DNA of 62,003 nt from Planctomycetia bacterium. Lineage in GTDB: Bacteria > Planctomycetota > Planctomycetia > Pirellulales > UBA1268. Shown here piece by piece: positions 15,539 through 62,003 of this stretch (position 1 is its first letter; every line of letters starts with the position of its first letter). The stretch covers positions 1 to 62,003 of the forward strand of contig JAIOPD010000067.1 of the NCBI GenBank assembly GCA_021414115.1. Direction: 5' to 3'. The notes under the pieces were generated by a model, which made no database searches, was not told the origin of the DNA, and worked only from the letters and a program-made list of their open reading frames with translations. The position numbers and the translations under genes are program-made.

Positions 15539-15683
15539 ACGGCTCCTGTTTCTGGGCTTCGTGGGCTCGGGGTTGCCCATGCTCGCCGTCAGGGAGCCCC
15601 GGGGGAAGACGGGCCTGACTGAGACGGTGCCGGGGTGGCTAGCCGGTTTCGCGCTGGCGCCGCCGAGGTCGGGCAAAGCCTCC

Positions 15684-15800
15684 TTCGCGGGAATATTTCG
15701 CGTTGGGCGTGTACGGCGGGGCCTGGCCGCGGCGGGCGAAATCTTCAACGCTCGTCGGCTTCGCCCGACCCCGGCTCCCGGTTTCGTTCACGTGTCGCTC
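15684..15800 (+). repeat. Partial copy of the long palindromic element (left half)
   Basis: Shares TTCGCGGGAATATTTCGCG, then GCGAAATCTTCAACGCTC, then CCCCGGCT and GTTCACGTGT in the same order and spacing as the left arm and loop of the copies at 42049 and 43114. The right arm is missing and is replaced by a REP-like unit. Confidence 0.6.
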
Positions 15801-15820
15801 GGGCGCCCGGGCGTAGCGGT

Positions 15821-15851
15821 CGGGAAGCCCCAAGCGCAAGCGCGGGGTATA
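15821..15851 (+). repeat. REP-like short repeat unit
   Basis: CGGGAAGCCCCAAGCGCAAG followed by CGCGGGG matches the unit at 60105 at 26 of 27 bases, and in reverse orientation the units at 28886 and 60185. Confidence 0.6.
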
Positions 15852-15913
15852 AGGTCTCCAACCTGTCCCGCTCCGCGCCTCCCTCACGGAGAGCCACCCG
15901 CGTTGCCTGCTGC

Positions 15914-28752: not shown

Positions 28753-29095
28753 CGCCTCTGCGCGGCCCCGCCTCGCCCCCGGCCGGCAAACACCAAAGTC
28801 GAGTGCGCTCTACCGCTGAGCAGCGAGGGGAAAGCAGGTGGCGCTCCGTGGACGTGACGCGGAGCGGGTTGGGGTGGAAAGCGTCTACCCGTCGCTCGCG
28901 CTCCGGGCTTCCTCGGCCTTCGAGTACCCGCGAGGGGCTGCCCGTGCCCCGAGAGCCGGCGTTGCTGGCCAGCGCAGGCAGCATCGAGTGAGCGAAGTCC
29001 CGGATGGACGGAGCGAACGTCCGGCTCTCGGGGCACGGGCAGCCCCGACTCACACTCGGGTCCTCGCCGGGCGATAGACCAAAGTCGAATGCGCT
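28753..29095. other. Gene-free region occupied by a repeat element
   Basis: 343 bases between vapC and the convergent amidase. Nearly all of it is the direct-repeat-bounded, hairpin-forming element described separately. I see no gene. Confidence 0.6.
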
Positions 29096-41676: not shown

Positions 41677-41736
41677 TCATGAGTGGCGGGCGGCACCGGA
41701 TTGCCGCCTCCACGACGGATCAGGAAGGAACCAGCG

Positions 41737-42000
41737 ATGCTCGTGCTCTCCAGACAACGTGACGAAAGCATCATGATCGGCGACAATATCGTCGTAACGA
41801 TCGTGGACATCCGGGGAGACAAAGTTCGCCTCGGGATCAATGCCCCGTCCGAGATTCCCGTGCATCGCCAGGAGGTCTACGAGGCCATCCAGCGTGAAAA
41901 CCTGCGGGCCTCGCGGCTCGAACCGGGTGACACGCAGGAAATCGGCAAGTACGCCAACCGGAACTCCTCGCGGCCCGGCGACGCCCCGCGGCCTCGCTGA
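41737..42000 (+). CDS. csrA: Carbon storage regulator CsrA, copy 1
   Basis: An 87-residue RNA-binding dimer that represses translation at GGA motifs. The core is complete: [20 protein letters not shown], then [14 protein letters not shown] and [15 protein letters not shown]; a ~25-residue C-terminal extension follows. The leader between fliW and this gene has four GGA motifs, the last two inside the ribosome-binding site (CAGGAAGGA, 41721-41729), which fits autorepression (inference). The ATG at 41737 is clear from the family start. Confidence 0.94.
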
Positions 42001-42048
42001 CTGACCAGAGTCATCGGCGCAGCCCTGGCGCCCACACCGTGATGCAGC

Positions 42049-42352
42049 CGCCGGGGACGGCAGCAGTCTCGTCGCGGGAGTATTTCGCGCGGTGCCGGCT
42101 CGGCCAGAATGACTTGGGGTGAGCGAAATCCTCAACGCTCCTCGAGCAGCCGCCGATCCCCGGCTGGTCTTGCGAGGGGCTGATTGGGCGAAGCGTTGTC
42201 TGCGCGACACGTCTCCTGCGAACCGCGGGGCGAGGCGGAGGGATCGGCGTGAGCGTGACGAGCATTGAGGATTTCGCCTGTAGAGGCGAGAAGCCTCGCT
42301 CGAGGTGACGCGAAATGCTCCTGCGAGGAACCTCATGCCGTCCCGCAGCCGG
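42049..42352 (+). repeat. Long imperfect palindromic element, copy A
   Basis: A ~304-bp element. The left arm (42049-42165) contains GCGGGAGTATTTCGCG and GAGCGAAATCCTCAACGCTC; the right arm (42237-42352) contains their inverted counterparts GAGCATTGAGGATTTCGCCT and CGCGAAATGCTCCTGCG. Tips pair as CGCCGGGGACGG with CCGTCCCGCAGCCGG. Copy B at 43114 has the same layout and orientation. Open frames here are by-products of the palindrome. Confidence 0.75.
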
Positions 42353-42395
42353 TCACCCTTGCACCGGTCACCCTTGCACCGGTCTCCCTCGCACC
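42351..42395 (+). repeat. 15-bp tandem repeat, three units
   Basis: GGTCACCCTTGCACC occurs at 42351-42365 and 42366-42380, then a variant GGTCTCCCTCGCACC at 42381-42395. It directly abuts the right end of element A. Copy B has related but shorter CAGCCTCGCACC-type units at the same place. Confidence 0.8.
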
Positions 42396-42417
42396 AGCCT
42401 CATGCCAGCCGGATGGA

Positions 42418-42999
42418 TCACGGGCTGAAATACGGCGGGTGGTTGCCCACTTTCCACTTGATGTTGCAGCCGAGGCTCGGGATCTGGTCGGCCACCGGCG
42501 GCTGGCCGGCGAGCAGAGCGTCGATGGCAGCGCGGAGATCACTGCCCGTGACGGGCGTTTCACTGCCGGGCCTGCTCGGATCGAGCTGGCCGCGGTAGAC
42601 GAGCTTTCGTGCCGCATCGAAGAGGTAGAAGTCGGGCGTGCAGGCGGCGTGATAGGCCTTCGCCACCTCCTGCGTCTCGTCGTAGAGATACGGAAACTGG
42701 TAGCCGCGGTCCTCGGCCTCGCGAACCATCTGCTCGGGCGAGTCGGCTGGATGGGCGGAGACGTCGTTGGAACTGATTGCGACGAAGCCGATGCCGCGGG
42801 CCATCGACTCGCGACCGAGTTGGGCCAGGTGATCGGCCACGTGCTTCACGAAGGGGCAGTGGTTGCAAATGAACGTCACGACCGTACCCCGTGGACCCGC
42901 CGCGGCGGCGTAGTCGACCATCCGACCGTCCACGTTGGGGAGTTCGAAGTCGGGGGCGGTCGTGCCGAGGGGCAACATCGTGCTGGGTGTGCGGACCAT
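42418..42999 (-). CDS. Thioredoxin-fold redoxin (AhpC/TSA-like)
   Basis: A 193-residue cytoplasmic thiol protein. The redoxin start is MLPLGTTAPDFELPNVDGRM, with the active-site motif FICNHCPFVKHVADHL (Cys-Asn-His-Cys) and FVAISSNDVSAHPADSPEQM. A conserved CTPDFYLFDAARKLVYRGQL follows. I chose the ATG at 42999 because AGGAG lies 7 bases upstream; an in-frame start at 43044 would lack this. The substrate is unknown; a peroxide- or thiol-related role is likely. It is isolated between two copies of the long palindromic element. Confidence 0.88.
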   Translation of the reverse strand: MVRTPSTMLPLGTTAPDFELPNVDGRMVDYAAAAGPRGTVVTFICNHCPFVKHVADHLAQLGRESMARGIGFVAISSNDVSAHPADSPEQMVREAEDRGYQFPYLYDETQEVAKAYHAACTPDFYLFDAARKLVYRGQLDPSRPGSETPVTGSDLRAAIDALLAGQPPVADQIPSLGCNIKWKVGNHPPYFSP

Positions 43000-43113
43000 G
43001 ACTGGCTCCTGATGGTGAGAGAGATGAATCTTACGCGATCTCATTCCTGGGCGCGCGAGGGGCGGGAGGATCGGTCGAGGGACAAGGGTCTGGGAAAGTC
43101 AGTCGAGGGGCAC

Positions 43114-43429
43114 CGCCGGGGACGGCAGCAGTCTCGTCGCGGGAGTATTTCGCGTGGTCCTCTTTTGGCCAGAATGAACTTGGGCGAGCGAAATTCTCAA
43201 CGCTCCTCGAGCAGCCGCCGATCCCCGGCTTCCCCGTTCATGTGTGACCCGATCGTGACCCTGGCTCTCTGATGGCCGCGCTACCGGCTCTCCGCTGGCA
43301 CGCTTGGGGAGGCGGAGGGATCGGCGTGAGCGTGACGAGCATTGAGGATTTCGCCTGTTGAGTTCAGAAGCCTCGCACGAGGTGACGCGAAATACTCCTG
43401 CGAGGAACCTCATGCCGTCCCGCAGCCGG
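43114..43429 (+). repeat. Long imperfect palindromic element, copy B
   Basis: A ~316-bp element. The left arm (43114-43226) carries CGCGGGAGTATTTCGCGT and GAGCGAAATTCTCAACGCTC. The right arm (43316-43429) carries GAGCATTGAGGATTTCGCCT and ACGCGAAATACTCCTGCG. The outer 18-bp ends are inverted repeats with one mismatch. The loop (43227-43315) differs from that of copy A but resembles the fragment at 15684. Confidence 0.75.
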
Positions 43430-43475
43430 CCAGCCTCGCACCAGCCTCCCTCGCGCCAGCCGGCCGCAACCAGCC

Positions 43476-44243
43476 TCACCCGAACACGCGCCGGGCATTG
43501 GCCGTCGTCGCCGCGGCGAAGAGGTCGAGCAGCTCGCCGCGGGCCAGCGCCAGGCAGCGGGCTGTGTGGACCACGTTGGCCGGTTCGTTCCGCTTGCCGC
43601 GGAGCGGCTCCGGTGAGAGAAAGGGGCTGTCGGTTTCGATGAGCAGGCGGTCGAGCGGCACCCGCTTCGCCACGTCGCGGAGCGCAGCCGACGAGCGAAA
43701 GGTCACCATGCCTGCGAACCCGAGATGGCAGCTGAGTTCGACCGCCTCGGCAGCCTCGTCGGCCGTGCCGGTGAAGGCATGCAGCACTGGCTGCAGCGGC
43801 CCGCGACCGAGCGCCTCACGGAGCATGTCGAGCGTGTCGCGGATGCTCTCCCGGGTATGGATCACGACGGGGAGCGAGAGCCGTTGGGAGAGCCGGAGAT
43901 GACGGTCGAAGAACTCCCGCTGGAGTTCCGGCGGCGCCGTCGTGCGATACCAGTCGAGGCCCGTTTCGCCGACCGCGGCCACGCGGCCCGAGACGGCGAG
44001 CCGCTCGATGCGGTCCCATTCGCCGGGCTCGGCCTCTGCGACATCGTTGGGATGAATGCCCGCCGCGGCGACGACGCCCGACTCGCGGCCGGCCAGTTCC
44101 GCCGCCGCTTCGCTGTCGGCGGCCCGCGTGCCGATCACCGTCATCCGCGTCACGCCGGCAGCGCGGGCCCGCGCGAGCACGTCGGGCAACTCGGCCCCGA
44201 AACGCATCGGGTCGAGATGGCAGTGGCTGTCGAAGAAGTCCAT
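43476..44243 (-). CDS. tatD: TatD family metal-dependent hydrolase/DNase
   Basis: A 255-residue TIM-barrel metal-dependent hydrolase. The N-terminal metal motif is FFDSHCHLD (His7 and His9), with GIHPNDV, VGETGLDWYRT, LPVVIHTRES, VLHAFTGTADEA and LLIETDSPFLSPEP, all in TatD order. Members act as 3'-5' DNases or RNases. It is the last gene of the long minus-strand nuo run, 4 bases after the preceding hypothetical gene, so probably cotranscribed with it. Confidence 0.92.
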   Translation of the reverse strand: MDFFDSHCHLDPMRFGAELPDVLARARAAGVTRMTVIGTRAADSEAAAELAGRESGVVAAAGIHPNDVAEAEPGEWDRIERLAVSGRVAAVGETGLDWYRTTAPPELQREFFDRHLRLSQRLSLPVVIHTRESIRDTLDMLREALGRGPLQPVLHAFTGTADEAAEAVELSCHLGFAGMVTFRSSAALRDVAKRVPLDRLLIETDSPFLSPEPLRGKRNEPANVVHTARCLALARGELLDLFAAATTANARRVFG

Positions 44244-60052: not shown

Positions 60053-60104
60053 CGCCGACTGAGCATGGCACGAGGCGAGGGTCGCTCCAGCGGCGGCTCT
60101 TCTT

Positions 60105-60135
60105 CGGGAAGCCCCAAGCGCCAGCGCGGGGAATA
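60105..60135 (+). repeat. REP-like short repeat unit, left arm
   Basis: CGGGAAGCCCCAAGCGCCAG then CGCGGGG matches the unit at 15821 at 26 of 27 bases. It forms an imperfect inverted pair with 60185-60217. Confidence 0.65.
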
Positions 60136-60184
60136 CGCCCTGCACCCCTACCGGCCCCGCACCACGCTCACGGCGAGCGAGCCG

Positions 60185-60217
60185 CATACCCGTCGCTCGC
60201 GCTCCGGGCTTCCCGGG
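60185..60217 (-). repeat. REP-like short repeat unit, right arm
   Basis: Contains the 27 bases shared exactly with 28886-28912. Its reverse complement pairs with the unit at 60105, so the two could form a stem of about 30 bp with a loop of about 50 bases. Confidence 0.65.
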
Positions 60218-60320
60218 CACCCGATTTCCGGGAATTCTTGGCGTGTTTGACGGGGGCAGGAGCCCGAACTAGCGTGTCGGTGGATTGCCGCGTAGCCCCG
60301 ATTCCCCGCAGGAAACTGCC

Positions 60321-61396: not shown

Positions 61397-62003
<607 letters not shown>

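Follow-up and report, generated by a model that had tools for sequence, protein, structure and literature searches.

REPINs combine conserved inverted ends with a variable spacer carrying compensatory changes, and they are found in tandem clusters (Bertels and Rainey 2011, PMC3116915); it has been proposed that their copies are renewed from a pool in which the arms alone matter (PMC3116915). REPs bear an unpaired GTAG/CGTC tag at the foot of the stem (PMC3733652). For ERIC and Correia/NEMIS repeats, roles in transcript end formation, protection or processing have been reported (PMC2229807, PMC10969869). Here we describe a family of hairpin repeats in a planctomycete, starting from two palindromes of about 300 bp in a 62,003-nucleotide stretch of contig JAIOPD010000067.1 (assembly GCA_021414115.1). 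This whole stretch is called the window and its source genome G000.

Results

Each palindrome is an inverted dimer of hairpin units

A preliminary description of the window, made from its letters alone, had reported two near-identical palindromic copies in direct orientation. Comparison of the copies confirmed this and placed them at 42048-42352 and 43113-43429. The features of the locus are given below, with scores (in bits) from R1, a covariance model of the hairpin unit used for searching genomes; W1 and W2 denote the first and second copy, L and R their left and right halves.

41738-42000, plus strand: CsrA-like gene, its 3' end facing the first copy (called csrA by sequence; an alternative, longer start lies at 41683)
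42048-42165, minus strand: W1L, hairpin unit, left half of the first copy, running 5' to 3' on the minus strand (R1 100.6 bits)
42166-42232, no strand: variable spacer of W1 (51% identical to the W2 spacer)
42233-42352, plus strand: W1R, hairpin unit, right half of the first copy (R1 121.2 bits; found in the orthologous gap of the related genome G017)
42418-43044, minus strand: redoxin/thioredoxin-like gene between the two copies (open reading frame and synteny)
43113-43230, minus strand: W2L, hairpin unit, left half of the second copy (R1 103.0 bits; present in G017)
43231-43309, no strand: variable spacer of W2 (pairwise spacer comparison)
43310-43429, plus strand: W2R, hairpin unit, right half of the second copy (R1 121.9 bits; present in G017)
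43334-43339, plus strand: GACGAG in W2R, 5' side of the conserved internal motif (its tandem G.A has GA at 43337-43338)
43400-43406, plus strand: GCGAGGA, 3' strand of the same motif in W2R (GA at 43402-43403)
43476-44243, minus strand: TatD-like hydrolase gene, its 3' end facing the second copy (open reading frame and synteny)

The left parts of W1 and W2 are 90% identical over 118 nt and the right parts 89% over 157 nt, and at the level of the units identity reaches 91% for W1L/W2L and 95% for W1R/W2R. End to end, over about 300 bp, the copies are only 82% identical because their spacers (67 nt in W1, 79 nt in W2) are unrelated, as had already been said of the loops that separate the arms. 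All 100 shuffles lacked a 33-base stretch of arm sequence that the window contains twice; a repeat of such length and identity is not expected by chance.

Folding of W1 and W2 was compared with that of dinucleotide shuffles and gave z values of -5.0 and -6.8, with 0 of 100 shuffles folding as well. The copies thus fold on themselves as proposed, but the two arms of about 115 bp within one palindrome, compared in inverted orientation, are only 67-69% identical, the reason being that every arm makes up a full hairpin unit of its own. As a single long hairpin, the predicted energies are -168.5 (W1) and -174.4 (W2) kcal/mol, and as two unit hairpins plus spacer -142.4 and -137.7 kcal/mol, respectively. 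Each palindrome of about 300 bp is an inverted dimer, joined 5'-to-5', of two units of about 120 nt. The 18-bp inverted repeat that had been placed at the tip, CGCGGGAGTATTTCGCGT, lies in fact about 25 nt inward from the left end of the copy; it is exact in the second copy (43138) and has its last base changed in the first. Directly 3' of the first copy, at 42349-42399, stand about three 15-bp tandem repeats (CACCCTTGCACCGGT); the second copy is followed by a degenerate form of them (43426-43461).

The fold is kept around a near-invariant internal motif

The unit has a long form of about 120 nt and a short form of about 82 nt (range 80-125 nt). Its outer helix reads, in subfamily A, AGGC..GGGAUCGGC / GCCGUCCC..GCCGG. 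Inward of this helix come tandem G.A mismatches that form the internal motif (GACGA / GAGGA), a short GCG/CGC helix and an inner helix (GARGAUUUCGC / GCGAAAUAYUC), and the hairpin closes with a variable loop some 32 nt long. Between subfamilies within the genome the outer helix is wholly different, its complementarity being retained.

Pairs were counted in two alignments: A1, of 31 sequences aligned by MAFFT without structure, and A2, of 103 distinct copies aligned to R1 and therefore leaning to the model. With kinship among the copies inflating the counts, both sides had changed in 20 of the 31 pairs in A1 and in 29 of the 31 in A2. The covariation score of A1 was 0.237, compared to 0.067-0.104 when the partner was slid by 1-3 columns, and in A2 94% of the cells were paired, compared to 35-51% after sliding. 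RNAalifold returned zero pairs on the MAFFT alignment, owing to its mixture of the short and long forms; the structure was taken from single folds, and its pairs were counted on that same alignment. These results show that base pairing in the hairpin family is kept through compensatory change.

The inner tandem G.A scarcely varies in A2: on its 5' side columns 33 and 34 are G in 103 and A in 102 of the 103 rows, and on its 3' side columns 147 and 148 are G in 102 and A in 103. The C36-G145 pair is found in 102 rows and the T adjoining the inner helix in all 103, and columns 22-164 hold a G.U in 82 rows and an A.C in none. In W1L and W2L, the C-G pair between both tandem G.A steps is replaced by G-C. 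What the preliminary description had overlooked is twofold, namely that an arm is a whole unit and that compensatory change surrounds a near-invariant tandem G.A core. Beyond the fixed wobble, A2 holds 31 G.U and 43 A.C cells, or 28 and 16 when four bulge-adjacent columns are removed; since G.U, which an RNA should tolerate, is not clearly commoner than A.C, these counts do not distinguish RNA from single-stranded DNA.

Among 11 dispersed subfamily-A copies, polymorphic columns numbered 3/44 and 1/42 in the two arms (together 4/86) and 23/32 in the loop (Fisher p 2e-13), and mean distances were 1.2% and 0.4% in the arms compared to 30.5% in the loop. Such conserved arms mean either that the copies are constrained in place or that they are renewed from a pool where just the arms matter.

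The units form a dispersed, lineage-restricted family

R1 found 44 units in G000 and matched 21 of the 22 genomes of the genus, with 1 to 115 units per matching genome. In a draw of 146 genomes from the order, units were present in 20 of the 23 members of the family, and there were zero matches in the roughly 123 genomes from other families. Within the family, the genomes lacking a match were G019, G022, G023 and G145. The multi-copy, dispersed nature suspected from two copies is thereby established. Copies elsewhere in the genome are mostly single units of about 120-130 bp, and near-identical copies sit at unrelated sites. One further long unit lies in the window:

15659-15777, minus strand: third long unit, a member of subfamily B whose outer stem differs in sequence yet is complementary (R1 88.7 bits)

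At all loci examined with R1, close inverted pairs were joined 5'-to-5' (W1, W2, one on contig C81 of G000, two in G021 and one on C74 of G017) and none had the opposite polarity, which makes the earlier label 'BIME-type' apt; the remaining close neighbours are tandem arrays. Arrays of three units at constant spacings of 141-142 bp and 236 bp were seen at L239 and L240 (G123) and at G000 C113:29580-30169.

Named records holding the unit pattern are planctomycete genomes from metagenomes, some of them lake-derived by isolate name. A single loose long-form match outside Planctomycetota, in a Phenylobacterium metagenome-assembled genome (L262), could be due to chance, contamination or transfer. 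Viral contigs searched with two exact patterns gave no match, and Rfam 15 gave no match to the window region, where the best E of 0.54 is at chance level, nor to five loci that contain other subtypes. The literature on planctomycete repeats mentions REP families for the phylum; this hairpin family was not found there.

Two side observations concern the surroundings of units. A second dispersed repeat (TCGGGAAGCCCCAAGCGCAAGCGCGGGG..TACCCGTCGCTCGCGCTCCGGGCTTCC) occurs in the window at 15820-15907, 28828-28928 (inverted) and 60104-60229, and also just upstream of several subfamily-B units (L037, L040, L050, L052). A subfamily-A unit shared by G000 (L039, C46) and G017 (L060, C24) has an identical loop and nearly identical flanks, other intergenic sequence of this species pair having diverged far more than these flanks.

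Units were gained at the locus in one lineage

The gene order fliW-csrA-redoxin-tatD is syntenic throughout the genus. The csrA-redoxin gap measures 423 nt here, compared to about 39-107 nt in most relatives with both genes on one contig; as gap lengths were taken from where the tblastn matches stop, they are upper bounds wherever the csrA alignment is incomplete. Another relative has a gap of 181 nt without a unit, and G019, with about 1 kb and no unit, is an exception. At the csrA-redoxin-tatD locus, R1 detected units only in G000, in G017 and, as two short ones, in G011. The check for empty sites thus found short, element-free gaps in most relatives, and shows that the units were gained in the G000/G017 lineage.

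Both W2 units and W1R are present in G017, where R1 finds no counterpart of W1L at the orthologous place. Between the orthologous W2R units of the two genomes the arms are nearly unchanged, while loop, spacer and flanks have diverged. An A-U pair (columns 33/95 of A1) is common to W1R and W2R and recurs elsewhere in subfamily A of G000 only in L049. Taken with the missing W1L of G017, this pair indicates that W1L probably arose from W2L by local copying or conversion. In the simplest history, the ancestor shared by G000 and G017 received the insertion, and W1L was either copied from W2L afterwards or disappeared from G017. At the far end of the window (61802-62003), the contig breaks off within a 16S rRNA gene on the minus strand, of which the 3' end is included.

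The short form travels in an IS630-type MITE

The window also holds a short unit within a decayed element:

53235-53316, plus strand: short hairpin unit of about 82 nt (R1 50.8 bits, E 3.9e-8)
53184-53343, plus strand: relic of an IS630-type MITE carrying this hairpin (decayed ends ..GCGCATC / GGACGCGCTCGA; flank comparison)

In G013, the hairpin of about 82 nt lies inside more than 20 near-identical 160-bp elements (TA to TA) with unrelated flanks, 19 copies having been compared for their flanks. These elements end in TAGAGCGCATCT..AGACGCGCTCTA with TA on both sides. Transposons of about 1 kb with a DDE_3 (IS630-type) transposase in G001, G010, G013 and G019 have the ends TAGAGCGCATC or close variants and share the subterminal CTACGTGTAGCG of the MITE at an identical offset. 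An autonomous element with the exact ends of the G013 MITE was not found in G013, which does hold an IS630-type relative with a slightly different terminal inverted repeat. These results show that the short hairpin is carried as cargo by a MITE that has TA flanks and IS630-type ends. Two IS630-type elements of 1017 bp (L302:1012-2028 and L304:238-1254) have a transposase in two overlapping frames, an arrangement that suggests a programmed frameshift.

In G000, where the copies examined are all relics, the terminal repeats of the MITE are mostly destroyed; the hairpin arms are 86-91% identical and the flanks 57-61%, compared to about 50% for unrelated sequence. In these relics the hairpin has outlasted its vehicle. 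Among the subfamily-A copies of G000, long units showed no terminal inverted repeats, TA flanks or shared ends, and their flanks differ outside AGGC..GCCGG. The check for target-site duplications at these long units likewise found none, so that 'MITE', one of the names first proposed for the palindromes, suits the short relatives with their TA flanks and IS630-type ends but not the long units.

Units lie between genes and seldom in divergent gaps

The units are nearly all intergenic, a few overlapping weak predicted reading frames. About 25 could be scored, of which 7 lie in convergent gaps, 17 in tandem gaps and at most 1 in a divergent gap; in the 15 tandem gaps free of frame overlap, orientation is split 8 to 7 and shows no preference. 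The background of 39 gaps in the window comprises 6 convergent, 6 divergent and 27 tandem ones. Avoidance of divergent gaps is modest (estimated p about 0.01 by length and 0.12 by gap count) and, with gene calls from a crude self-trained caller and so small a background, the shortage of divergent sites is suggestive only. The early idea of an effect on mRNA 3' ends is compatible with this placement.

Discussion

The units resemble REPINs and BIMEs in being dispersed intergenic hairpins that form inverted dimers of fixed polarity and tandem clusters in lineage-specific sets, and in having conserved ends, a variable loop and compensatory changes (4/86 polymorphic columns in the arms, 23/32 in the loop). 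They differ in length, 80-125 nt against 20-40 nt for REPs, and in having an internal tandem G.A where REPs have their terminal tag. The GTAG/CGTC tag is absent from the A2 consensus, the core GACG is internal, and other members have GAGG, GCGG or GCCG. The Y1/RAYT transposase domain PF01797 is absent from G000 (95% complete); the scan covered 14 genomes of the genus, G017 not among them, and detected the domain in only 4, never next to units. Mobilisation by a RAYT was therefore rejected, since G000 has no Y1 gene and no retrieved Y1 locus lies near a unit.

The short form shares the TA target of IS630/Tc1-mariner-type MITEs, for example RUP of pneumococcus, and sits in 160-bp elements with the ends TAGAGCGCATC..GACGCGCTCTA and the subterminal CTACGTGTAGCG. 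The difference is that here the hairpin is cargo, and that long units occur free of the vehicle and without such ends. ERIC/IRU and Correia/NEMIS repeats, compared by description and with no sequence relation seen, are similar in being intergenic, 100-200 bp long, numerous, lineage-restricted and transcribed as strong hairpins, and share TA ends with the MITE-borne form only; their terminal repeats form the stem, whereas here a covarying outer helix encloses a conserved internal motif. The attC core sites RYYYAAC/GTTRRRY were not seen in the conserved outer bases AGGC..GCCGG. The sequence CUGACGA..GAA of some members recalls a hammerhead-like core (CUGANGA), a reading that was rejected as there are only two stacked helices, no junction, and a first base that varies. 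Long units thus lack what defines a REPIN (RAYT, tag) and what defines a MITE (terminal repeats, target duplication), and the hairpin family works like these repeats and probably belongs beside them.

We favour, with a probability of about one half, a REPIN/BIME-like mobile hairpin family that is retained for its folded structure and most likely acts at gene 3' ends. The fixed G.U would be an A.C mismatch on the opposite strand, which suggests that a folded single strand, rather than the double helix, is under selection, and a protein may recognise that strand through the tandem G.A motif. As intergenic units keep their arms after the ends of the vehicle have decayed, a role in place seems most likely. 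Placement and in-place constraint together favour a stable hairpin near gene 3' ends that would work in either orientation and might contribute to transcript end formation, protection or processing, the roles known from reports on ERIC and Correia/NEMIS repeats.

The main alternative to such a 3'-end role, possible though somewhat unlikely in our judgement, is a purely selfish REPIN-like element whose single-stranded DNA hairpin is moved in trans by some enzyme without gain to the host. Arm conservation could also stem from replicative selection or gene conversion. In a selfish element the arms would be conserved because only copies with good arms replicate; the REPIN anatomy (conserved inverted ends, a variable spacer with compensatory changes, tandem clusters), the near-identical copies at unrelated sites and the tandem arrays of G123 and G000 C113 agree with this, and the one-strand mark of the fixed G.U with few other G.U pairs fits single-stranded DNA as well. 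However, Y1/RAYT (PF01797) is missing not only from G000 but also from the element-rich G009, G011 and G013, no unit was found near any retrieved Y1 locus (best E 0.2), and the arms of W2R are conserved in place between species, as arms elsewhere persist past the decay of the MITE ends.

Rather unlikely is a more far-reaching possibility: the hairpins may constitute a novel class of structured nucleic acid with a host function throughout the family, in which a dedicated protein would read the invariant tandem sheared G.A, and which would first have been IS630-type MITE cargo and then been kept once the vehicle was dead.

Decaying debris of a MITE or palindrome, in which function-free pairing is maintained by template-switch (quasipalindrome) correction that mimics compensatory evolution, is a doubtful account that we rank lower still. 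Long GC-rich inverted arms are a classic substrate of templated correction, G.U intermediates are few and the short form is clearly MITE cargo. Against this, correction ought to remove mismatches, yet the fold retains its irregularities across genera, namely the tandem G.A, bulged U, G.U wobble and internal loops, and subfamily A conserves the sequence of its arms beyond mere complementarity. A single local duplication without a wider family, for which the A-U pair of W1R and W2R (L049 aside) and the lack of a W1L match by R1 in G017 could be cited, is refuted as a full account by the 44 units genome-wide, their occurrence throughout the family and the short element-free gaps of relatives, and stands for the W1L half only.

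This family illustrates with unusual clarity how a dispersed hairpin repeat in bacteria keeps its fold and specific mismatches, with covariation, across genera while the loops decay and, in some copies, the transposon vehicle decays as well. It opens a direct approach to the question of whether repeats of this kind are purely selfish or become functional, in a group of bacteria whose genomes come mainly from metagenomes. For intergenic elements that so far lack an explanation, R1 would supply an annotation, with tens of them per genome and as many as 115 in one.
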